Assembly (NCBI GenBank): GCA_963082975.1 | Contig: OY720345.1 | Location: 54,666,528 to 54,730,527 of the forward strand | Source of the DNA: Labia minor | Taxonomy: Eukaryota > Arthropoda > Insecta > Dermaptera > Spongiphoridae | DNA length: 64,000 nt | Direction: 5' to 3' | In this document: positions 9,705 to 61,839 of the stretch, one piece after another | Numbering within the stretch: the stretch's first letter is position 1 | How the letters are laid out: each line of letters opens with the position of its first letter | Position numbers and translations under genes: made by a program | Notes under the pieces: generated by a model | What the model was told of the DNA's origin: nothing | Database searches by the model: none | What the model saw: only the letters and a program-made list of their open reading frames with translations

Positions 9705-12700
9705 ACCTAGTGCAGTGATTCTCAAAGTGGGGGTCGCGACCCCTGAGGGGGTCGCGAAAAATATTTGGGGGGTCGCAAAAAAACTGATGACAAATTAATT
9801 TTTGTTTTAAAAATTTTATTAATTTAAAAATTGTTAAAAAATAAATTGTTATTATAAATATAAAAAAATAATAAAAATATTTTAATACGTGCCTGAATAT
9901 AACATTCAAAAATTTGTTCGATATTGGGGAATCCCCCGAGTTTCTCCTCTCCGCCTAATCTATGATAGAATAATGTTCTCATTTGGAACAGTCTTACCAG
10001 AAAGACGCAGTAGGGTTCCCCCGCATCTCCCCCCTTCATATCTTTTTCATTTCTGGCATCACTGATTTGGAACCGTGTTCGCTAAGTTCGTTAGCCGGGC
10101 TACGTCTGTATGCATGTCGATTTCAAAATATTGTAATTCAAACTAAAAGTGCTCATTAACTATTTTTGTGTGTTTTATATACTGTTATATATGAAAATAA
10201 AGGTAAGTATTTGTTTTTGTATTTATTTATTTACTTTTATTATGTGGTGAATAACTTGGTAATATGAGTGTTAATAATGAACAACCTACGCTAAAATACC
10301 CGTAATAACGTCTTGAATAAAATTAATAACGGGAGTGCAAGCTTAGGAAGCTATTCTAATTGACCTTTCAAAATCAAAGTTGTTATGCCAAAACTGGTAC
10401 ATAGTTCCACACAAAAAAACTTCATTTAATAATTATTTAAATTGATTTTTATACCATTTAAATTTATTTTAGAATATTATTCCATAAATATGGATAAATG
10501 GTTGAAAAGGAAAGCTACGAGTGTAGATGCAAATGATCTTGCCGAAGCTGGAAGCAGTAAAAAAACAGAAATGGATCCAAAATCGGAACCAGCTTTTAAG
10601 AAAAAGAGAAAGTATAATGAATCATATTTACAATACGGATTTACATTTACTGCTGGTACACATGACGAACAACTACCATTATGTTTATTATGTAATGATA
10701 CTTTTGCGGCTGAAAGCATGAAACCTTCAAAATTACTAAGGCATTTCAACATCAAACATGCTGCTTATACAACAAAACCTGTGGAATATTTTCAAAATTT
10801 ATTGAAGGTATCAAATCAAAGCAAATGTTTGTTAGAAAATTATGCCTTTACTCAGGAAAAATACCTTTTAGCGTCGTACCAAGCATCATATCTAATAGCA
10901 AAAGCTAAAAAACCATATACAGTTGGAGAAGAACTTGTTTTACCTACTGCAGTACAAATTACAGAAACTATTCATGGAAAAAAAATATGCAGATGAATTG
11001 CGGAAAATTCCTCTCTCCAATGATACAGTTGCTAGAAGGATTTCAGATATTAGTTGTGATCAATTTCAGCAACTTATACAAAGAATTAAGGAAAGTCCGA
11101 AATTTGCAATTCAGCTGGATGAATCGACAGATATTACAAATTTGGCTCAATTATTAGTTTACGTTCGATACAGCCATGCCTTCAATATACATGAAGATTT
11201 ACTGTTTTGTCGGCCAATGAAAAGTTATACAACAGGCGAAGACATATTTTTACAAGTTAATGAATTTTTCAAAGAAGAAGGATTGGACTGGAATAACTGT
11301 ATTGGTGTATGTTCTGACGGTGCAGCAGCGATGAAGGGACACCGCGCCGGATTTCTAGCAAAAGTTAAATCTATTACAAATAGGCATATCATGTTTACCC
11401 ATTGTATCATTCATCGAGAAGCGTTAGTAGCTAAAAAATTATCACCAGATCTTAATGTGGTGATAAATGATGCCATACGTATTATAAATTTCATAAAATG
11501 CCGTGCACTTAATAGTCGTTTATTTGCAAATTTATGTAAGGATATGGGAGCAGATTATGAACAGCTTTTACTACACACAGAAGTAAGGTGGTTGTCAAAG
11601 GGGCGAGCCTTAAAACGACTAATAGGGTTGAAAGATGAAGTAATGATATTTTTATCAGAAACAAAGTCCGATTTTTTAATTCTCTTCCACAATGAAATTT
11701 GGGTTTGCAAATTATGTTATTTGTCAGACATATTCGAGAAACTAAATGAATTGAATATGTCCTTGCAAGGTGAGAACACGAATATATTAATTTTGTACGA
11801 TAAAATTCATGCGTTTATTAAAAAGATAAATTTATGGAAATCAAGTGTGAAAAATGACATTTTCGTAATGTTTTCGAGTACATATGATTTTATCACAGAA
11901 AATAATTTGGATAATATTTTAATTAAGAAAAGCATAATTGATCATTTATCATCTATGGAAGAACAATTTAAAAAATATTTTCTATCCGATTTAAATACTG
12001 AACAGTTCATCTGGATACAACAACCATTCCTTGTAAAAATGGCACAAGTGAAACATCTCACATTAAGTGCCCAAGAAGAATTTGCCGAATTTAGTTGTGA
12101 CACAAATCTTAAAATCGAATTTAGTAAGCAAACATTAAATTGTTTTTGGCTTCGTCTGAAAACAAAGTATCCAATACTCGCTGAATTAGCAATGGATATT
12201 CTCTTACCATTTGCAACTACTTATTTGTGCGAAATGGCATTTTCAGTAATGACCAACATAAAAACAAAACAGCTTCTCGTCTTAGTAACATAGAAATTGC
12301 TATGAGACCTGCATTGACCGAACCCAATTTTAATTTATTGTGCCAAAATAAGCAAGCTCACCAATCGCATTAAATTTATTTTAAAACATGTTAAATAAAC
12401 TCAATTAGTTATGTTAAGTTAATGTCAGAATAAAAGTATATAAGCATAAAATATTTTGTTCAAAGATGTACCAAAGATAAGTTATTAATTTTTATTGATA
12501 CTAAAAATAAATTGGCTATGTATCAAAATTATGAGTGTTTCAATGCAATTAAACTAAAAAAAAAAACTCATTCTAAATGTAAATGATTTTCACCCCTTCT
12601 TCCTCCCTCTGAGATGTTTTCTACACATACCAATTCTTCGGGGGGTCCTTTGAAATTTTTAAGTGTAAGAGGGGGTCGCGGACCAAAAAGTTTGAGAAAC

Positions 12701-29535: not shown

Positions 29536-30440
29536 CTAGGTAGGGTCAAAAAGTTCGCGGAATGGTCGCTTATAGTCAAGTATTTCTTAGCTGAAAGGGA
29601 AATTTTGTTTGTGAGGTTGGCATAACTGGTAGTGAATGTGCTTTTGAGGTTAGCAGGCAGTTGTAGTTGGTTCCGTGCGTTCGGTGTTTAATATTGTAGA
29701 TCGTAGTTTCTTTCTTTCGTCGGATTGTGCAATGTCGTCATTAGAGCAGCGTGGCAATATTAAATTCTGTGTGTTGCTGGAGAAATCACCCTCGGAGACT
29801 CTTGAGATGGTAAAAAAAGCATATGGAAATTCTGCGATGAAGAAAACAGCAGTTTACGAGTGGCATAAGCGTTTTCGCGACGGTCGCACAACAATTGATG
29901 ATGACGTTCGGACTGGGCGGCCTTCCACTTCCACTACAGGCGACAATGTTGAGCGCGTTCGACAAATTGTGCGTGCGGAAAGACGAACAACCATCAATAA
30001 TATTGCCTCTGAAGTTGGTATTTCACATGGGAGTGTTCACAGCATTCTTCATAATGACTTGAACATGCATCGTGTTTGCTTGCACTTTGTTCCAAAAATG
30101 TTATCCCCTGAGCAAAAGGAAATGAGAGTGACCATGTCCAGGGACTTGATTGAAATGGCTGATGCAGATGACATGATTTCTACCTGTTTCCAAGGTTAAA
30201 AATGGCATTGAAGGGACATCGTTTTGCTGATTCGTCAGAGGTGATTGAAAATGCGACGGAGCGGCTGAAGGAACTTTCAAAAAACGGCTTTCAAGAGTGT
30301 TTCCAACAATTATATGTACGGTGGAATAAATGTGTAGATGCAGGAGGAGAGTATTTTGAAGGGAAATAATGTAAGAATGTTATAAATATTTTTAATAAAT
30401 TTTTAATAACCAATTCCGCGAACTTTTTGACCCTACCTCG
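29536..30440 (+). mobile_element. Internally deleted mariner
   Basis: A 905-bp element with terminal repeats of about 27 bp (TAGGGTCAAAAAGTTCGCGG in both), TA at 29534-29535 and 30441-30442. A full mariner is about 1.3 kb, so roughly 0.4 kb of the transposase gene is missing. The sequence at both ends is well preserved, which suggests it could still be a substrate for a transposase in trans. Confidence 0.88.
29732..30369 (+). pseudogene. Mariner transposase with catalytic core deleted
   Basis: The start MSSLEQRGNIKFCVLLEK at 29732 fits mariner starts; the longer frame from 29675 is less likely. The N-terminal DNA-binding half is intact (VYEWHKRFRDGRTTIDDD, RTGRPSTSTTGDNVERVRQI) up to DLIEMADADDM at about 30174. 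The sequence then jumps, out of frame, to DFYLFPRLKMALKGHRFADS and ends YVRWNKCVDAGGEYFEGK with a stop at 30367-30369. The deletion removes the first and second catalytic Asp. Such N-terminal-only products can bind ends; whether it is expressed is unknown. Confidence 0.88.
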
Positions 30441-35441: not shown

Positions 35442-36123
35442 ACCGACCGACGATAGTAAGGGAGGTATTGTTTTCACACCAAATTTCACATGTGGAGATT
35501 TTTACATATCTCCACGAATCATGCATTTTCTAAACAGAAAAAAGTATTTTTAGCATGATGTCTGTCCGTCTGTCCGTCCGTCTGTCCGTCCGTCTGTCCG
35601 TCCGTCTGTCCGTCCGTCTGTCCGTCCGTCTGTCCGTCCGTATAGATGTGTACAGCCTGAACGGCTCAACCGATTTTGATGAAATTTGGTATATTTACTT
35701 AATGCATCAGTGGGATGAATTGATCAACTTTTGGTGCAATTCGGGAAACCGGAAGTGGTAGTATTAGCGATCGACGATAGGAAGGAAAGGGTTATTTTCA
35801 CACCAAAGGAGATTTTTTTATATATCACCACGAATCATGCATTTTGTATTGGTTTTATCCTCGAAAAAAATCATATTTATTAGTTTTTTCTTGATTTAAA
35901 ATTATATGACGTCATCCAGCCATGCATGACGTCACAGCCTGGTCTTGCATATATATTATAAATAAAATAAAATTAAAAATGTTTATATTTATTATTTATG
36001 TATCCATATCTGTTTTTTATTACATTAATAGATATATGAAAATTATTTGAAATTGTTTCTGTAGCTGGAAATTAATTTATTTCAAACCGTCGGTCGGTTC
36101 GGACCTGGCCACAGGTCAACTTA
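35442..36123 (+). mobile_element. Helentron-like family C, full copy C1
   Basis: 5' end ACCGACCGACG; 3' inverted copy CGTCGGTCGGT at 36088-36098; hairpin GACCTG-GCCA-CAGGTC at 36102-36117; end AACTTA before TT. Inside are a TGTCCGTC-type minisatellite (35559-35640), the block GATGAAATTTGGTATA near 35678, and a second copy of the 5' module from about 35771 (CGACGATAGGAAGG, TTTTCACACCAAA). A TGACGTCA pair flanks a short spacer near 35907-35935. Non-coding; the 68-codon frame here is the translated minisatellite. Confidence 0.75.
35559..35640 (+). repeat. TGTCCGTC-type minisatellite in C1
   Basis: Roughly seven units of a 12-bp repeat (TCTGTCCGTCCG). The homologous tract is about 30 bp in the copies at 17640 and 43343 and about 60 bp in that at 52297, so it varies strongly between copies. 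Confidence 0.9.
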
Positions 36124-39963: not shown

Positions 39964-40600
39964 ACTATCTCACCAGAGATTGAGCTAGAATAATGAAATT
40001 TGGCACACGGGTATTATTCAAAATTCGTTGTTTTCTATCAAATTATGAGAATTGTAATTCATTCGATAGGGGGTCATTACCTACCTCGTAATCAAACAAT
40101 CAAAGCACTTGGCTGCTCCTACCACATCCACCGTATTCACCAGGCTTAGTCCCTTCGGCCCTACCATTTGTTTTCATCGATGAAACGCATATTTTCTGAG
40201 CAGCACTTCGATTCCTACGAAGAAGTCGAAAATTAGGTATCTAGTTAGGTTAGGCGAACATTTCTATTGGGGTGGTTTTTCCTCTAAACTGTGTGATATA
40301 TGTTTGATAGTTTTCACATGATTAAAAATTGTATAAAACTACTATATAGAGAATTTCAGCTTGAATGAAAGTACAAGAATTAATTTTTTAACTTTTGACT
40401 TAATGAAAGTAAAAGATTTATTTACGTTGAAAAAAATCAAAACAATCTTGATATTATTTGAATGCCTTCTTATTTCAATACAATATTATCATTGAAAATT
40501 ATGTTAAAAACCTTAAATCTTATGATTCCATAGAATAAAATTTTAATTAATTTTCAAATATAGAAAAAAACTTGCTTTCCGAGATAGTCGAGTGAACACA
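39964..40600 (+). mobile_element. Family B copy with mariner fragment inside
   Basis: Starts ACTATCTCACCAGAGAT, then jumps straight to TGAGCTAGAATAATGAAATT, so the microsatellite part is deleted. At about 40092-40268 a mariner C-terminal piece interrupts the B sequence between CATTACCTACCTCGTA and CCTCTAAACTGTG. The 3' end is decayed (CGAGATAGTCGAGTGAACAC). Confidence 0.7.
40092..40268 (+). pseudogene. Mariner C-terminal fragment within a B element
   Basis: Matches the minus strand of 48000-48215: CACCGTATTCACCAGG, CCTACCATTTGTTTTCATCG and CGAACATTTCTATTGGG. There are no mariner ends here, so a whole-element insertion is unlikely; capture by the B element or insertion followed by loss are both possible. 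Confidence 0.75.
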
Positions 40601-45672: not shown

Positions 45673-47957
45673 ATTATTTTAAATTATAATTACATATAAA
45701 CTATTTTGTAAGGTAAGTTATGAATTCATAGAAGATAAATGATTTATATTCGTTTTTATCAGTTTTTAATCAATAATAACATAATATATATTTGTTTACT
45801 TCTTAACAATTATTTATTTTTTATAGGTGTTGTTTAGAAATGTATAAAAAGTTTTTGATTTCATAATTCATTGGATATCTATTTAAATTGCTAGTAAGTA
45901 TTCTCTTAGGATTGAATTTAATTGACACTCCGTTTTCGCTTTTAGTTTACATTCATTCATTATTTAAAGATCGCATTGATATGTAATTTATACGTGTCGT
46001 GTGGAAGATAGTTTGGTGGAAATGTCATTCGAGAGCACATATGGAAGGGGGTGCGTCTAGATGATTTTCCCTAAGGAAATTTCCTTTCCTTGCCCTTCAT
46101 TTTCTCTTTTATTTACCCATTTTTTATCTTTTTCCCTCTCTCACTTCTGTTATATTATAAATATATATTCTTTTTTGTCTTCTCTCTTTCTTTTTTTTTC
46201 TCTGTTTAACTTCTCCGTTTATACTCTTTTTGAGTATCTCCCATCAATCTATTCCCACTGTCAACAATAAAAATGAAAATGAGTTTATTTTTAAAATTAG
46301 GACCTGGAGATAGTTAAAAATAATTTCATTTTTATAAACATTCAATAACATTAGAAAATTATTTAAAAATTTATATAAAAGAAAAATTTTTTTTTTTTTT
46401 GTAACGTTCATTTCATTTAGTTTATTTGAAAATCTAATTCTAGCTAAAAAATTCTTCTTCAACTTAGTATTATTTTACCATTGTTTTGTAATCTGTCTCA
46501 CAAATAATAATAATATTAATATTTCTGAGATGTATTTTTTTTTATTTTCTGTTTTAGATCATGTTTCATTTCTTTATATAATTTTTCAGTAATTATTTTT
46601 TTGTTTGTTGGTGCTACTATTCCATTTCCTACTTTTTACTTCCTACTTTTTACTTTTCTCCAAAATACTTTGATATTTTTTTTCATAATATAGTTTGATT
46701 ACTTTTCTTTCTTAAGATCAATTCTATTTTCTGGTTACATAATTATTTTTTGCTCTTGCAGTTTTATATTTTAATTGTTTGAATTAAAACTCATTTTGAT
46801 TTTCATTCCTTTATATTCTTTTCTGTCTTTCTTTTTTTAAATTTTTTTCTTTATCTTTGAGTTCATTTTTAAATTCCTCTCCTTTTAAGGGTTATATATT
46901 CATAAACTCATCTATATATTGAAATAATTGGATGAGCATCTTCAATTTAAACTCAATTTTGAATACTATATATATGAAAATATTCTATTTTTTCATCTAT
47001 ATATTCATTTTTTATTGTTTTATACAAATTTTTCTTTGTTGACAATTACCAAAACATTTACAAATGTTCCTTTACCCAAGTATACAAGTAAATTTTAATT
47101 TACAATTTCCTTTCCTATTTCTATTTAATATTCTCATTCCGTTCTTGTTACATAATTCTATTAGTGCCAATTGGCCTTTATTATTATTTTGTGTCCAACT
47201 AGGAACTAAACCATTGTTTCATTCTTTGATTTCAAATATTAGATTAAGAATATTCTTTATTGCATTGTTCTCTTTATTCTAATAGCATTTTTTAAATTAA
47301 TATTAATTAAAATAATCTCAATGCAATTTTTAAAATTTAAAACTTTAATTATTCTTTTAAATAAATTTCTAATAGTACTATGCTGTTCTTTACTTTTTAA
47401 TTTTACTTTTGCATTATTCCTTAATTGTTTATTTGATTCTTTCATTTGTGTTGTATGGAATGTTGTACGCAAGTAAATCAATTTATTTTTATTGTTTTCT
47501 TTAACAATTGTAAACAATTTTTTATTTACTTTTTATTTAATTTATTTAATCCCTTCTAGAATACTATTATTTCAGTTTCAATTCCTTTACTTTCTTTTTA
47601 AAAGAGCATCCTTCCTGATAAATCACAAATAGTGATTGACTTTTAATATTTCAAATCAAGGGAAAAGTTAATATGAGAAGTTATATAAGGAAATCTTGCA
47701 TCACAAAAATTGTCGATGAGGTTACAAGAACAACATAATCTATTTCTATGATTACTTGATTACAAATGGCCATGAAGACAAAGTGAAGGGAACAATAACT
47801 ACTACAATGTGGCCCATATATATGAATGATCATGTAAATTTTACTAAAATTATTTAAAAAATAAATAAATATTCTATGTCTACCGGTATGAAATGATCGT
47901 TTTTTGTTAAAATAAAACACTAATTTTGAATGGGAAAGAAAAAAAAAAATTAATTAA
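45673..47957. other. AT-rich spacer
   Basis: About 2.3 kb with no recognised gene or repeat family. 46000-46260 is pyrimidine-rich. Frames of 69-86 codons here are low-complexity. Confidence 0.45.
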
Positions 47958-49012
47958 AGAAAGCATTGAGCATGGCTTTCTTCACATTTTGACCACCTTT
48001 ATGGATATCATCCCAATAGAAATGTTCGCCTTTTGAAGCAACTACTACTACTACTACTACTATCTAGCAACTAGATACCCAATTCTTCGTAAGAATAGAA
48101 GTGCTGCTCAGAAAATACGAGTTCCAACGATGAAAACAAATGGTAGGGCCAAAGGGACTAAACCTGGTGAATACGGTGGGTGTGGAAGCAGCTCACAGCC
48201 AAGTTCTTCGATTGTATCCTGAACCAGTTTTTCTTTGTGTCCGGGTGCATTGTCGATTAATAAAATTACTTTTCCAAATTTTCTGGTTCATTCTGGTCGT
48301 TTTTTGATCAACATATTGTTCATATTGATCATTTGTGTGTGTGTGTTTTTAGCGATTAGTATTAACTGTTTCACCAGGTTTTAGAAGCTCACGATTCACC
48401 ACACCTTTTTGAACCGTAGAATAGGCCTCGTCCGACATGAAGGTAAATGCTTACAAAGAATAACGAAGCTCCATTAGCATGTAAGGTTTGTAGAAGCCAT
48501 CCATAATTTATATCACGACAAATATGAACTACGCTAGAAAAGGCGTAATCAATATGAGCTACTTAATGCATTGGCAAAAATAATCCTATGGCAATTTGTA
48601 ACCCTAAACATAACCATAAAAGGATCCGAAATTTCATCATGCTTCCCACCAAACACAGATCATTGCCTTCTTACCGAATCGATCTGGTTTTACAGTCGAT
48701 GTTGATGATTGTCTCATTTTAACTTTTTACGTTTAGGATTCTTAAAATAAATCTATTTTTCATCACCAAAAAGTCAAAGTATCATCTTCATCCAATATTA
48801 CTCGCAATTCAACGTCTTCATACTATTTTGATGTTCCTCCCCGTTCTTCATTTCTAAACATCAAAATCATTATTTCTAAACTGTTGAAACATTCGTTTGT
48901 TTATTGCTTCTGAGAGCTTCATCACACCATATAGCTCAACAAGGATTTGATCCAACACTTTTCTTCAAACGAAAACAAAAATAATCACTTTCTGGTACAA
49001 AATTCGGCATTT
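47958..49012 (-). pseudogene. Mariner transposase relic split by a NUMT
   Basis: The minus strand begins MPNFVPESDYFCFRLKKS at 49012. Landmarks in order, across several shifts and stops: GDEK-IYFKNPKRKK (first Asp), SSTSTVKPDRFGKKAMICVW, then the NUMT, then [37 protein letters not shown] (second Asp) and ELLPHPPYSPG. The third-Asp region is degraded. A (TAC)n microsatellite (48040-48066) has grown inside the C-terminal part. It ends near 47958; its terminal repeats are not obvious. Confidence 0.85.
48412..48642 (-). pseudogene. cob: NUMT: mitochondrial cytochrome b fragment
   Basis: The minus strand translates, across one single-base frame change, to WWNFGS then [52 protein letters not shown] and [18 protein letters not shown]. 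This is the conserved N-terminal third of cytochrome b (haem-binding helix region). Both W codons at 48639-48634 are TGA, which is Trp only in the animal mitochondrial code, so the piece comes from mtDNA. One in-frame TAA stands where Tyr is usual. It sits between two parts of one mariner that would otherwise be contiguous (CVWW before, QKGVVN after). Confidence 0.93.
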
Positions 49013-50355
49013 TTATCAGGGAAAACTATGATGTGTGTGTTCAGTGACTTGATGTATATTAAATATCTATGATAAATACCATCAAAAAAAACAAAAAATG
49101 AAGGTTAGTTCACAACAAATGTCCTCTATCGACACATTTATATTTAAAACTCACTTTATACCGGAAGACCTGGTATATATATATATATATATATACAAAT
49201 AAATACAAAAATGCTCTAATTTGAATAATTTCTTTTGATATTAAAATTCTACTTTAATATTAGTTTTAAATGAAAGTAGTGTGTGTATGTATGATGCTCC
49301 TTCTCCATTATAAATTGTTGTTATTCTATTAAATTTTCATTTTTGCAATCAACAATAAATATACCTATTTATATATAAATTAAAAATAATTTACATATAT
49401 TAATTAAATAATTGGTGAGATATATGAGCCTATCTACAATTGTGCCACTCAGAAGCCAAACCGGTTTTGCTAGTAATGTAATGTAATGTAAGGTAATCTG
49501 CAACATATGAAGTGTATAATGAACTTGATTATCTTAATATTGCAATACAATATAAATTTTTCTGTAATCAATAAACCTGAATTTTCTACAAGCTCTTAAC
49601 TTTCGGCTTCACTTTCTCAGTTTCTTTAAATGTGGAGTTAATCGCTTTGGAGTGGTATAATTCAAGAATATAATTTTAAATTAGATAAATTTATTTATTT
49701 GTAAAATTAACTTCATGACATTCTGGGTAACGGGGTTCTTGCTCCCACCTAGATGGATAATATGTTAATTAAAATAAAAAAAAAATATACTAATAATTAA
49801 TGAGCTTTAGTGTGTTAAAACCAGACGAGCATCGTTTTTAACTTAGATGAATCCCCGGTGAGCCAGGTGTAATGCTTCATCTTGTCAATATTTAAAGAGA
49901 AACTCTGTCCCTGCATCAAGCTAACATTGACAATAACGAACAACCAGATACCGCATACATCGCTGCATTTCGCTGCCGTCATTTCGATAATACGAAAATT
50001 TTATGTTATGGTTAAAAAAAGGAAAAAAAATATACAAAATATATACATACAACAAACATATATGAAAAAGAGAGACAGGCAATCGATAACCATTGTAAAT
50101 ATTTAAATCTAATAACATATCGAATCACAGAGAAAAATAATACTGGATACATTTTATAAATTTCTATTCATACTATATTTTATATCAAAAAATTACCAAT
50201 ATTAATAAAATAAAATTTTCATTGAATATCATTTTAAAATTTTATTAATATTAGTATATTTATTATCATTGTTATTTTTAAATCGTAGAAATTCTCATTT
50301 ATTTATATATTATATACTCATGGTATTCCATATTTTCTTTTTATTATCAAAATTT
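49013..50355. other. AT-rich spacer
   Basis: No gene is recognised. TA microsatellite at 49172-49198. 49800-50000 is somewhat richer in G+C and unassigned. Confidence 0.45.
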
Positions 50356-52178: not shown

Positions 52179-52840
52179 ACCGACCGACGATAGTAAGGGA
52201 GGTATTGTTTTCACACCAAATTTCACATGTGGAGATTTTTAAATATCTCCACGAATCATGCATTTTCTAAACAGAAAAAAGTATTTTTAGCATGATGTCT
52301 GTCCGTCCGTCTGTCCGTCCGTCCGTCTGTCCGTCCGTCTGTCCGTCTGTCCGTCCGTATAGATGTGTACAGCCTGAACGGCTCAACCGATTTTGATGAA
52401 ATTTGGTATATTTACTTAATGCATCAGTGGGATGAATTGATCAACTTTTGGTGCAATTCCGGAAACCGGAAGTGGTAGTATTAGCGATCGACGATAGGAA
52501 GGAAAGGGTTATTTTCACACCAAAGGAGATTTTTTTATATATCACCACGAATCATGCACTTTGTATTGGTTTTATCCTCAAGAAAAATCATATTTATTAG
52601 TTTTTTCTTGATTTAAAATTATATGACGTCATCCAGCCATTCATGACGTCACAGCCTGGTCTTGCATATATATTATAAATAAAATAAAATTAAAAATGTT
52701 TATATTTATTATTTATGTATCCATATCTGTTTTTTATTACATTAATAGATATATTAAAATTATTTGAAATTGTTTCTGTAGCTGGAAATTAATTTATTTC
52801 AAACAGTCGGTCGGTTCGGACCTGGCCACAGGTCAACTTA
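52179..52840 (+). mobile_element. Family C copy C4
   Basis: Intact plan: ACCGACCGACGATAG, minisatellite at 52297-52358, GATGAAATTTGGTATA, second 5' module near 52488, TGACGTCA pair, then AGTCGGTCGGT, hairpin GACCTG-GCCA-CAGGTC and AACTTA at 52840. Very close to C1 by eye except for minisatellite length. Confidence 0.78.
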
Positions 52841-52899: not shown

Positions 52900-53372
52900 A
52901 GATTTTTGTCTGCACATTAATCAGAATTTAAAATTTTTTGCATATCTTCGCGTTTCATGATATCTAAAATCCAAAAGTGACTTTAGCATTATTTATATCT
53001 GTGTGTGTGTGTGTGTAGACAAGATTACACAAAAACGGTTTCAGCTAGAATAATGAAATTTGGTATACGGGCATTATTCAAAATTCGTAGTTTTCAATCA
53101 ACTTTTGAGAATTGTAGCTCTTTTGCTAAAGGACCATTGCAGATAAAAGCAGTTGAAAACAAATACATTTCATAAATTTGCGCAACTCACAAAAATATAC
53201 TATTAATCTAAAAAGTCTTCTTATTTGAATAAAATGTTATCAGTGAAAATTATGTTAAAAACTTTAAATCTTATGATCGGATAGAATAAAATTTTATTTA
53301 ATTTTTAAATATAGAAATAAAGCTTGATTATCCAATTCAAATTTGAGCGATTGTAGAATGGAGACTGCGAGA
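52900..53372 (+). mobile_element. Family B variant, partial
   Basis: Opens with TTTGCATATCTTCGCG, as at 23247, then (TG)n at 52999-53017, GGTTTCAGCTAGAATAATGA and the following B block to 53130. The remainder is diverged and the 3' end (GAATGGAGACTGCGAG) is decayed. Confidence 0.6.
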
Positions 53373-55221: not shown

Positions 55222-55880
55222 GCAAATATAATTTTTTTATTTTCAATTTAAAGTGACATTTATTCTAGAGACGCCCAAACGGCAGGGCTAATTTATTTTC
55301 TTTTTTTCTTTTATCTTATAATTTACTGTTTAATTTATCTAAAAAAATGATAAATTCTGATAAATATTTATTCTTTCAATATCAAATATTTACTGAGAAT
55401 TCAACATGATTATCAAAATCAAAAATCAATTGAAATTTAAAAAGCAATCATTTCAACATACTCTTTTAATTATAGATAATAGAAAAGGTCACTTTTTAAT
55501 ACTTTCATTTATTAAAAAAGAATTTTATTATGTGTCTTTGAAATATATCGAAACATTATTATTTAAAAAATTAATATGTGATACAGTGATTAATATATTT
55601 TGTTTGAAAGTATTTTGTTACTTTATATAATATATTTATTATATATGATATATTATATATTACTCGTATTCTATATTCTATTGTCTGTATCTCGAGACAA
55701 CTGCCAATATATTTACATCTTTTACTTAATTCGATTTTAAGTAATAGTTATTGAACTAATATATATATATAGTTTCATGTTATCTTTTTTATAATTAAAC
55801 ACAAAAAACGTCTGATCAATTAGTATATAAAATATTTCAATTAAATAGAATTTTTATGCTGAATTTAAATTTGAATATAA
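55222..55880 (+). repeat. Dispersed repeat S, copy 2
   Basis: Second copy of the repeat at 1-735, same orientation. Shared motifs include AGACGCCCAAACGG, TATAGATAATAGAAAAGGTC and TATGTGTCTTTGAAATATAT. Here a 74-codon frame (55406-55630) is open; it is lysine-rich and of low complexity, with no known domain. Confidence 0.75.
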
Positions 55881-57244: not shown

Positions 57245-59122
57245 AGAATGAAGAACAGAAGTGTGTTGAAAAATTTGTCGATAGATTCATTATCTACCAT
57301 CAATAATCAATCAATTGTAAGTAATCTACACTTGCGTGCAGCTAAATCGACTCAAACCAAAAGCGCGAATACAAAGTCTTATTTTTTTGAAATGGCTAAG
57401 CCGATATTTATAAAATGTATATATTTTAAAAGCTTATTAATTTAGCTTTACATTGATATCAATATCAAGTAAATTGGTTGATTACTTTTTAAATTATTTG
57501 ATCTGAATTACTGAACTGGAAAAAATGTTGTTCCTAGCTGCCGCTAATGCTTATTTACAATTGCCTTATAAAATTCCATACAACCAATTATTCTTATTAA
57601 TCGCATTTCATATGTTTTTTGGATTAAATTTACACAAATTGACAACCATTTTTATCAGAAAATCATGGATACAAAACCAGAGGTTGCCTCTCAAGTTATT
57701 GTTTTGATAAAACAGGGTCATTGCCAAAGAGAAGTCGCTCGTCTGTTGAACTTAAGTCAGTCTGCTGTCTCAAGGATCTACAGGAGATTTCAGCAAACTG
57801 GTGGCTTTACTCGGAGACCAAATACCCGCTGCCGTCGGTCAACGTCTGCGAGAGATGACCGTTTTATCGTTACGACGTCTCTCCGAAATCGCCATCTCAC
57901 TGCCGTAAGTCTTCAGCAGCAGCTGAGAGAAGTTCGAGGTGTGGCTGTCAGTCAGTGGACAGTGAGAAGACGCTTGAAGGAAGCCAACCTCACTTGCAAA
58001 AGACCTGCCACTGGCCCGAAATTAACCACAACCCACCGTGTAGCTCGACTTCAATTTGCTCGAGAGCATCTCAATTGGAGTATCGACCAATGGAGGGCAG
58101 TTCTATTCACTGATGAGTGTAGAGTGTGCCTTTATGGTAGTGATAGGAGAAGTCGAGTGTACAGGCGTCCGGGTGAGCGATTTTCCCAATGCTGTTTCTC
58201 TGAAACAGTCTCTTATGGTGGTGGTTCTTGCATGATTTGGGGTGGCATTTCCTTGGACGGAAAAACAGACATTGTTTTTGTGCCTGGCGGAGGCCGTGGA
58301 GGGGGTCTAACAGCTGACCGATATATTGCGGACATTCTCGTGCATCATGTTGTTCCCTACGCCGGATTCATTGGCGAAAATTTTTTATTGATGCATGATA
58401 ATGCCAGGAGCCACACTGCGGTGGCCACTCGGAAATACTTGACTGAAGTTGGTATCGAGACCATGAAGTGGCCAGCGCTCAGCCCGGACATGAATCCAAT
58501 AGAGCATATGTGGGTCCACCTCAAACAAAGGGTACGATCAAGAAATCCCGCACCTTCGACCATTGTTGAGCTCCAAAGAGCTTTGTTAGAAGAATGGGAG
58601 AACATCCCCCAAGATTTTATAAAAAATCTTATAAGGTCGATGCGGGATCGCATGAGGGCTGTCATTAAAGCTAGAGGGGGGAACACCAATTATTAAGAAA
58701 ATAAATTTTCTTTATTATGATTAAAATTATTGTTTTATTTAAATTTTTAACATTCCTACTTTTCCTTTCCTTAACATCGTTTTTCACTTTCATTGTCATT
58801 CAAATAAAATAATTTAAAAAGTAATCAACCGATTTACTTGATATTGATATCAACGTAAAACTAAATAAATAAGCTTTAAAAATATATACATTTTATAAAT
58901 ATTGGCTTAGCCATTTCAAAAAAATAAGACTTTGTTTGCGCGCTTTTGGGTTGAGTCGATTTAGCTGCACGCAAGTGTATATATATTTAAAGAATAGTTA
59001 TATATTGTTCTTTTATAGTTTAGTTTAGTTTAATTTTTAATAAAACTTAATTTTTTAGATTAAACAAGTGTTAAATTTAAATGAGTTTATTTGTCAACGC
59101 CACCATAAAAGAATAGTTATAG
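57245..59122 (+). CDS. Candidate host gene fragment, two coding exons
   Basis: Exon 57245-57316 lies between TTTTCCAG and GTAAGTAA, with ATG at 57248. Exon 59059-59122 lies between TTTTTTAG and GTAAGT. They join in phase and stay open: MKNRSVLKNLSIDSLSTINN, then QSIIKQVLNLNEFICQRHHK and RIVI, ending in phase 1 at the next donor. Removing the Tc1 element leaves a 92-nt intron, a normal small size. I recognise no family and found no convincing further exons before the hAT at 59260. A ~35-bp direct repeat (AGAATAGTTATA and TATAGTTTAGT) near 58990 and 59110 overlaps the second exon's end, which weakens the call. Confidence 0.33.
57327..58978 (+). mobile_element. Complete Tc1-type transposon
   Basis: The element lies at 57329-58976 (1648 bp), flanked by TA at 57327-57328 and 58977-58978. 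Long terminal inverted repeats of about 180 bp (57329-57508 and 58798-58976) begin CACTTGCGTGCAGCTAAATC; by eye they differ at roughly a dozen positions. The transposase gene between them is uninterrupted. The long repeats fit the IR/DR type of Tc1 element. It sits 12 bp inside a putative intron. All the visible parts needed for mobility are present, so it is the best candidate for a recently active element in the window. Confidence 0.95.
57665..58696 (+). CDS. Tc1-type transposase, DD34E, intact
   Basis: A 343-residue protein that would cut and paste its own element at TA sites in the nucleus. Residues 1-45 form a first helix-turn-helix (REVARLLNLSQSAVSRIYRR), followed by a basic linker near 48-60 (TRRPNTRCRRST) and a second helix-turn-helix up to about 110 (VSQWTVRRRLKEANLTCKRP). 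The catalytic residues are D150 (LFTDECR), D245 (MHDNARSH) and E280 (DMNPIEHMW), with 34 residues between the last two. A Gly-rich stretch (GGGRGGG) lies near 208-214. Length is normal for the family. An AATAAA at 58700 may serve as poly(A) signal. G+C is clearly higher than in the flanks, consistent with recent arrival. Confidence 0.96.
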   Translation: MDTKPEVASQVIVLIKQGHCQREVARLLNLSQSAVSRIYRRFQQTGGFTRRPNTRCRRSTSARDDRFIVTTSLRNRHLTAVSLQQQLREVRGVAVSQWTVRRRLKEANLTCKRPATGPKLTTTHRVARLQFAREHLNWSIDQWRAVLFTDECRVCLYGSDRRSRVYRRPGERFSQCCFSETVSYGGGSCMIWGGISLDGKTDIVFVPGGGRGGGLTADRYIADILVHHVVPYAGFIGENFLLMHDNARSHTAVATRKYLTEVGIETMKWPALSPDMNPIEHMWVHLKQRVRSRNPAPSTIVELQRALLEEWENIPQDFIKNLIRSMRDRMRAVIKARGGNTNY

Positions 59123-59251: not shown

Positions 59252-61839
59252 TGTTACAATAGGGTTGCCATACGTCCCGGTACACCGGGACATGTCCCGG
59301 TTTCTAGCCCAATGTCCCGGTGTCCCGGTCCAAGCCTTAATTGTCCCGGTCCATCAAAAATTTAAGCATATCACTATCTCTGCATTGGAATTGGAACTTT
59401 GAAACAAAGCGCCGCGCCGACGCCACGGACATCGCATCGTCGAGTCCCCGTTGAGTCCTACCACTCAAAAGTTCCCACTCCTCAACCCCCCCCCCCCACA
59501 AGAACACGTATTACTTGCAAAGCGCACGCGGCACACACACAGGCAGTCGAATTCAACTCTTCGCTTTTTTCATTTGGTTCTGTATTGTTGCTTGTTTTAT
59601 GGAGACTGAAGCGTATGCATATCATAATGTAAAATTTCAGAACATCTTACAATAACTAATAAATTCACTTTTTTATTATTATTGTTGTGAAGACGGAACT
59701 GAAGATTGCATGGGTATTTAATTATTGTAATTTATATAGGAGGCATGCCAGTAATTATGATTAATTTTGCCTTTCAGATATTTGTTTGAACCTTATTAAT
59801 AATTAATTTCAAATACCATCAACAATGCCAAAAAGAAAATGCCATTTTTCTGACGAATTCACCAAACAGTGGCCATGCATTAAAAGGTGGAAAAATGAAT
59901 ACGAAGCATTTTGTTCCATTTGTAATATATATATATCGGTGAGTCATGGCGGAAAATCCAGTATCAGGGACCATATAAAATCATCAAACCACAAGTCTAA
60001 ATCAATTTCCGCATCTACATCAAAGGACGTATCTTCTTATTTTATTAAGAAAAATTCTCCGGAAAATATTTTAATAAGTGCTGTGGAATTAACGACAGCG
60101 TACAAAACAATCAAACACCACCAATCATTTAATTCGTTAGATTGCTCATCGAAATTGAATTCAATAATGTATCCCGATTCCGAAATTGCGAAGAAACAAT
60201 CATGTGGGCGGACTAAAGCAACTGCGATAATTAAAAACATATTGGCCCCTCTTTCTGTAAATGGAATTCAAAATGAAATGCAAAATATTCCTTTTTATGG
60301 AATATCTACAGATTCGAGCAATCATACGCATAACAAAATGTTTCTCCTGCTCATCCATTATTTCACGGAAAACGATGGCTTGAAAGTGAAGCTCCTAGAA
60401 TTGCAAACCTTGCCCAATGAAACGTCTAATACAATAACAGCATTTTGTATGGGTGCAATAAGAAGATATAATATTCCGTTGAAAGGCCTCGTGGCATTTG
60501 GGGCTGATAACACAAATACAAATTTCGGTGGAAGGGAGAGGAGTGGAACAAATAATGTTTATTACAAATTGAACCAAACATTGTCAGCAAACATAGAAGG
60601 AGTCGGTTGCCCTGCACATTCTACAGCTTCTACTGCCGCCGATGTATTATCGATTGATGTCGTTTTAAAATTATACAAATTCTTTTCAATATATACTGTG
60701 AGGAATGAACGTCTTAAAAATTTCTGCGAGTCTGCTGGGGTCACATATGCAAATATTCAATCTCATTCAAGAAGTAGATGGTTATCGCTCCTTCCAGCGA
60801 TTGAAAGAATTCTACAATTGTGGGAGCCATTAAAAACATTTTTTCTGGAAGAAGAAAATCCTCCACAGGCTATAATGATTTTTTTTTCAAATCCTTTATC
60901 CGAAATTTATACCTTGTTTGTACACAGTCAAATGTTATTGCTTGAGAAGCAAATTAAAAAGCTTGAAAAGTCAATCATAGGCGTCATTGAAGTGAAAAAT
61001 ATTTTAGAGGACACAAAAAGACAATTAATGCACAGATTGACCAGCAAATTCCTGGGTATTCAAACCACCCAGAAATATAATAAACTGAAAATGCATAAGG
61101 AAATTACGAAGGCACAGAAACACGAATTTGAAAATAATGTAGAGAAATTTTTCAACGTTGGTATCATTTACTTAAAGAGGTGGTCAGTTCCACTGGTGAA
61201 ATATGATGTTTTTTCTTAGATGCTTCTCCACGAAGAATCCGAATGGGAATAAGTTGAAAAAACCGTTGGGTATTTAAATGAACTGGGTATATTTTTTACG
61301 GATTCAATTTATGAGGAAGTAATGTATTTGAAGTCATTTATTCATAATAAAATCTGCAAAGAATGGGATAGCAAGGATGTGCACGGCAAATGGCAGTACT
61401 ATTTTACAAAGACTGAAGAGTCCGAAAGGAAAGCGAACCTACTTAAAATATGCCAATATTTGTACGCCATTCCACAATGCGCATGTTGAACGAGTGTTTT
61501 CGTTAATTAAAGCTCAGTGGACAGATGAGCGCAATTTGCTCTCAATCGACAAAAGGATTTGCTTGAAAAAGCAACAAAATCTGATAAATACGATAAGAAA
61601 GGAGAATCAAACGAGGAAGAATCAAACTGATCAACCCATTAATCAGAGTATCAAACAATTAATTATTTAATTATACCCAGTATTGTTGTTTTGTTCTTGT
61701 TGTTGTTTTATTATTGTTTTCTGATTTTTGGTTTGAAATTAATAAAGACGTAAGCGTACGTATTTGCCAAGTGTTTTTTTTTGGGGGAGCTGGGTGTCCC
61801 GGTCTGAAGTCCAACAATTATGGCAACCCTATGTTACAA
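59252..61839 (+). mobile_element. hAT element with GTCCCGGT subterminal repeats
   Basis: The element lies at 59260-61831 (2572 bp), flanked by perfect 8-bp duplications TGTTACAA (59252-59259 and 61832-61839). Ends TAGGGTTGCCATA and TATGGCAACCCTA are perfect 13-bp inverted copies. GTCCCGGT recurs at least six times in the first ~100 bp and once near the right end, as expected for transposase-binding sites. It carries a broken transposase gene. Confidence 0.95.
59825..61669 (+). pseudogene. hAT transposase with BED finger, C-terminal part broken
   Basis: MPKRKCHFSDEFTKQWPCIK starts the protein at 59825. A BED-type finger follows (C30, C33, H50, H56). hAT landmarks: GISTDSSNHTHNKM (D163), VAFGADNTNTNFGG (D228), GCPAHSTAS (C262, H265) and SRSRWLSLLPAIERI (Trp). 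The frame is open to 61217, where TAG interrupts it; a TAA follows 13 codons later in the same frame, and a frame shift between about 61377 and 61480 is needed to reach FHNAHVERVFSLIKAQWTDE, the C-terminal dimerisation region. That last part ends at 61669. Two stops and one shift. It is related to, but clearly different from, the transposase at 10490. Confidence 0.92.

Follow-up and report, generated by a model that had tools for sequence, protein, structure and literature searches.

How does a piece of a mitochondrial gene come to stand inside a transposon, and which of the two was there first? One place in the 64-kb stretch of DNA analysed here (the window) raises this question. There, a short segment that reads as cytochrome b separates two parts of a mariner transposase gene.

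Identity and extent of the insert

We found that the segment is a fragment of the mitochondrial cytochrome b gene (48413..48643, minus strand, 231 bp), most likely a NUMT (nuclear mitochondrial DNA segment), as identified from Pfam and PDB matches, from its translation and from the way the flanking DNA joins when it is taken out. Under the invertebrate mitochondrial code the insert reads AWWNFGS, followed by 70 residues one frame over. Pfam assigned PF00033 to its 71-residue frame (80.1 bits, E 2.5e-22; cut-off 27.2); a TAA stop was entered as X in this query. The same frame matched 44 distinct sequences in PDB at E<=0.001, the best being 5nmi_C (E 1.5e-26, 95.1 bits). When the query was extended by AWWNFGS (with TGA as W) and six trailing residues, the top PDB score rose from 95.1 to 108.1 bits (E 1.9e-30), and the alignment covered everything from the Trp-Trp pair through the Ser of YGS. 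The top-scoring entries include mammalian cytochrome b, which reflects only which structures have been solved.

The homology to cytochrome b begins with the codon GCA at 48642 and ends with the Ser codon at 48412-48410. Past this Ser codon the window has AAA, where the cytochrome b chains in the alignment have Tyr. The insert spans residues 29 to about 106 (numbered as in chain 1be3_C), and it contains neither the start nor the end of the gene. Its edges are ambiguous by 1-3 bases, as A48643 and TCA 48412-48410 can be assigned to the insert or to the mariner at either junction.

The first-pass annotation had described a cytochrome b segment at 48412-48642 with TGA at two Trp positions. The PF00033 and PDB matches bear out the identity, those edges agree with ours to within 1 base, and the two TGA codons are indeed both Trp codons of WWNFGS. 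A search for relatives of the fragment gave 11 pattern matches in viral contigs and 59 in bacterial and archaeal genome contigs, none of which was confirmed.

Mitochondrial code and decay of the insert

The two TGA codons (48634..48639, minus strand; individually 48639-48637 and 48636-48634) were placed at the Trp-Trp of WWNFGS by the alignment to PDB cytochrome b and by the sequence. The donor used a mitochondrial code, since TGA stands at two conserved Trp codons; TGA as Trp is compatible with several such codes.

The insert no longer reads as one frame. From the translations, a 1-bp loss lies at 48620..48622, near 48621 (minus strand), between the frames of WWNFGS and LLxLCLGLQ, and it puts WWNFGS and LLW...YGS into different frames. 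The X entered at this position falls in a gap of the extended PDB alignment. A TAA stop stands in frame at 48563..48565 (minus strand; PDB alignment and sequence), at a position that is Tyr (MHY) in the PDB cytochrome b chains shown. Because of the frameshift, the TAA and the lack of both gene ends, the NUMT is judged to be non-functional and decaying. The insert also has W, P and Q versus Gly, Ala and Arg in the five PDB chains shown, which we take to be mammalian. These changes may add minor support for decay, weak when taken alone, because the five chains are nearly alike and the insert also departs from them at numerous further positions. We rejected an estimate of the age of the insertion from its decay: one frameshift and one stop in 231 bp are too little to give a number.

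The mariner on both sides of the insert

On the same strand, translation upstream of the insert gives MPNFVPESD, NNDFDV, YEDVELRVILDEDD, GDEK, NPKRKK and STVKPDRFGKKAMICVWW, and translation downstream gives a 20-residue block and KVILLIDNAPGHKEKLVQDTIEELGCELLPHPPYSP. Judged by their sequences, the blocks on both sides are those of a Mos1-like mariner transposase. The 5' part (48644..49010, minus strand; Mos1 alignment, PF01359 and translations) starts from an ATG at 49010, chosen by eye, and reaches the junction with TGGTGGGA; its reading frame changes, it contains stops, and part of its interior is deleted. The 3' part (47950..48412, minus strand) runs from QKGVV on and contains frame changes, CA and TAG repeats and a DNAPGH block. 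It was delimited by the Mos1 alignment up to SPGLVPL, by a DDE_3 match and by translations; the sequence beyond SPGLVPL, and its end, were judged by eye.

Read through the frame changes, the joined C-terminal part of the transposase matched Mos1 in PDB with E 1.8e-34. The N-terminal pieces, read in the same way, matched Mos1 in two blocks with E 6.7e-26, and about 50 Mos1 residues are missing between the edges of these blocks. Pfam gave any match at E<=1 for 3/6 of the mariner pieces. The piece left of the insert alone scored 23.6 bits against PF01359, just under the curated cut-off of 24, and the score rose to 49.1 bits (profile positions 12-57) when the pieces were joined. Neither the stretch right of the insert nor the N-terminal 24 residues of the mariner had a Pfam match alone; a piece further right matched DDE_3 with 31.0 bits.

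An inverted-repeat search located the ends of the element. One arm lies at the mariner 3' end (47861..47896, plus strand) and probably includes flanking bases. The other lies at the 5' end (49151..49186, plus strand) and runs into an AT repeat. The arms are 36 nt long and 78% complementary, and they form the longest of 16 inverted-repeat pairs.

The catalytic triad (DD34D) is not intact. GDEK and DNAPGH are present, the third block reads SPGLVPL versus SPDLAPS in Mos1, and the frame is broken. The third catalytic Asp belongs to this third block. The mariner is a remnant and not an active member.

The junctions and the empty site

Excision of the 231 bases 48413-48643 restores TGGTGGGATCAAAAAGG (WWDQKG) in frame, with the codons TGG TGG GAT CAA AAA GGT. 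The frame continues as WWDQKGVV, and 23 residues stand in one frame across the join. Over the same stretch Mos1 reads MLCVWWDQSGVIYYELLKPGETVN, in which CVWWDQSGV is contiguous. (The junction residue was entered as E in the PF01359 and Mos1 queries; the exact join gives D.) That the two mariner parts are contiguous in normal mariners had been claimed from the start, and had been set beforehand as a point on which the account of this site could fail; the in-frame join, as in Mos1, confirmed it. Since the empty site is exact and in frame, the insertion lost no mariner base and duplicated no target site.

The bases at the two edges leave room for microhomology. TCA 48412-48410 fits both the serine codon of YGS and the mariner GAT CAA, and A48643 fits either side, giving up to 3 bp at one junction and 1 bp at the other. 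By an independent-base estimate, matching bases at a random joint would number at least 3 in about 8% of cases and at least 1 in about 51%. Microhomology was ruled out as proof of mechanism, as TCA and A are not distinguishable from chance. The junctions have the form that end joining would leave: no target-site duplication, and joints that may be read as blunt or as microhomologous.

With the assembly as given, the insert is embedded in nuclear DNA, since mariner lies on both sides of it and the window holds other transposase genes. Could the assembly itself be at fault, with a mitochondrial read or contig misjoined into the mariner? mtDNA is plentiful in animal sequencing libraries, as is generally known. 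However, a misjoin with real mitochondrial reads should leave the frame intact, and this insert has a frameshift and a TAA, unlike living mtDNA; sequencing error could explain one of them, hardly both. In addition, two chance joins would have to lose or gain exactly zero mariner bases. A chimera with living mtDNA is made unlikely by the frameshift and the stop, and we consider misassembly of any kind to be very improbable.

Other copies of the mariner and of the mitochondrial segment in the window

A blastn search of the window with the mariner element found a single long match at 40096-40246, a short one next to it, and weak matches at 55289-55357 and 53281-53311; many further matches are to its AT repeat. 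The fragment at 40096-40246 (plus strand) belongs to the same mariner family and is 83% identical to the 3' part of the element over 155 columns. By eye, both it and the copy at 48 kb read GGCCCTACCATTTGTTTTC, at a position where mariners presumably code PSDYHLF. This shared reading suggests that the common ancestor of both copies was already defective.

A related possibility is that the NUMT is mobile. The mitochondrial fragment would have entered the mariner elsewhere, and transposition or duplication would later have produced the copy at this locus. If so, the transposase of an active relative would have moved the mariner, and copies of a mitochondrial fragment would have spread through the nuclear genome as the cargo of a transposon. 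The ends of the element are still recognisable, movement by the transposase of another copy is conceivable, and the same-family fragment described above lies in the same window. Against this, blastn with the cytochrome b segment found no second copy of it anywhere in the window and no other convincing mitochondrial piece (best other match, E 0.15), and none of the mariner matches in the window reaches the junction. The latter result also means that the window contains no sibling mariner in which the empty site could be seen. We regard a mobile NUMT as very unlikely.

The reverse order, in which a mariner would have transposed into mtDNA or into a NUMT already present, is so improbable that it can be set aside: it is contradicted by the geometry, with cytochrome b inside the transposase gene, mariner on both sides and the ends of the mariner about 500 bp outward, and we found no point in its support. 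A search of the window with 15 mitochondrial motifs, at an identity of >=50%, also speaks against it, as a weak negative; besides the insert, it gave 14 matches, all to one 8-residue motif, which we took as chance.

Other features of the window

Under code 5 the window contains 330 open stretches of at least 60 residues. No tRNA was found in it with the bacterial code, and Rfam gave no match at the gathering score.

Several other regions resemble transposons. An uninterrupted ORF of 343 aa at 57665-58696 (plus strand) encodes a Tc1-type transposase (HTH_Tnp_Tc3_2, E 1.5e-17; DDE_3, E 3.8e-14), and this element is possibly young or active. Another mariner N-terminal half lies at 29675-30199 (plus strand; Mos1 transposase HTH, PF17906, 27.2 bits, cut-off 24.1) and by eye is of a different subfamily. 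Two overlapping ORFs at 10442-12293 (plus strand) probably make up a single transposase of the hAT type; at the end of the second lies a hAT dimerisation region that scores 21.4 bits, equal to the Pfam cut-off, and the first is without a Pfam match. An ORF of 464 aa at 59825-61219 (plus strand) had no Pfam match at E<=0.001 and by eye looks like BED-zinc-finger transposon-derived proteins. Two GTCC-type tandem arrays (35559-35641 and 52297-52358) are G+C-rich, in contrast to the AT-rich window.

Discussion

Our results are most consistent with an ordinary small NUMT that was captured by end-joining repair of a break in a resident mariner, and we hold this reading with high confidence. The cytochrome b match, TGA as Trp, the flanking mariner, the rise in PF01359 score on joining and the inverted repeats all counted for it. 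A Mos1-like mariner would already have been resident in the nuclear genome when its transposase gene suffered a double-strand break at the Asp-Gln of WWD/QKG. A cytochrome b fragment of ~230 bp that had escaped from mitochondria would then have been captured by end joining, with no mariner base lost. Today both the mariner and the NUMT have the look of DNA in neutral decay.

The first-pass annotation had proposed that mtDNA repaired a break inside a resident transposon. The part of this claim that concerns order stands: the nesting, the clean empty site and the decay of the insert can be read directly from the DNA. Repair of a break fits the junctions, and we infer it, together with the end-joining step, from those junctions and from the established behaviour of NUMTs.

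Read in this way, the locus would illustrate on a small scale how mtDNA can patch a break in nuclear DNA, by a repair that lost no base. Such patching in general is already well documented, and the locus changes no view of it; what stands out is how clean and legible the site is. The interrupted DNA encoded a conserved protein, which makes the sequence before the insertion readable with no need of an outgroup genome. The insert also calls for caution in practice, as the nuclear copy could be amplified when cytochrome b primers or barcodes are used for this organism.

Comparison with known systems

The host element shares with Mos1-like mariners the GDEK, WW(D)QKGV, ELLKPGETVN and DNAPGH blocks and the inverted ends. 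In contrast to them, this copy is dead, with an internal deletion, frame changes, simple repeats and a 231-bp insert.

According to the part of PMC2820518 available to us, NUMTs enter by non-homologous end joining (NHEJ) at double-strand breaks, with junctions that are blunt or have 1-7 bp of microhomology. Among 90 recent primate NUMT insertions described there, 35% of fusion points had at least 2 bp of microhomology, and over half of the events involved no deletion. In the respects tested, the present site fits this NHEJ route. It shares with the NUMTs in that account a short piece of mtDNA in nuclear DNA, no target-site duplication, no deletion, a possible microhomology of 0-3 bp, and decay (PMC2820518). 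It differs in that the site is a transposase gene, whose empty state can be read from protein conservation; the mechanism would not be different.

The available parts of PMC5059674 and PMC12910113, which represent the literature partially, contain no NUMT inside a mariner. Fig wasps provide an association of NUMTs with transposable elements (TEs), in which, as far as the accessible part of PMC7600805 describes it, TEs lie near or inside NUMTs and affect them. Those cases and this one share close contact between a NUMT and a TE in an animal genome. In contrast to the fig wasp cases (PMC7600805), here it is the NUMT that interrupts the TE.
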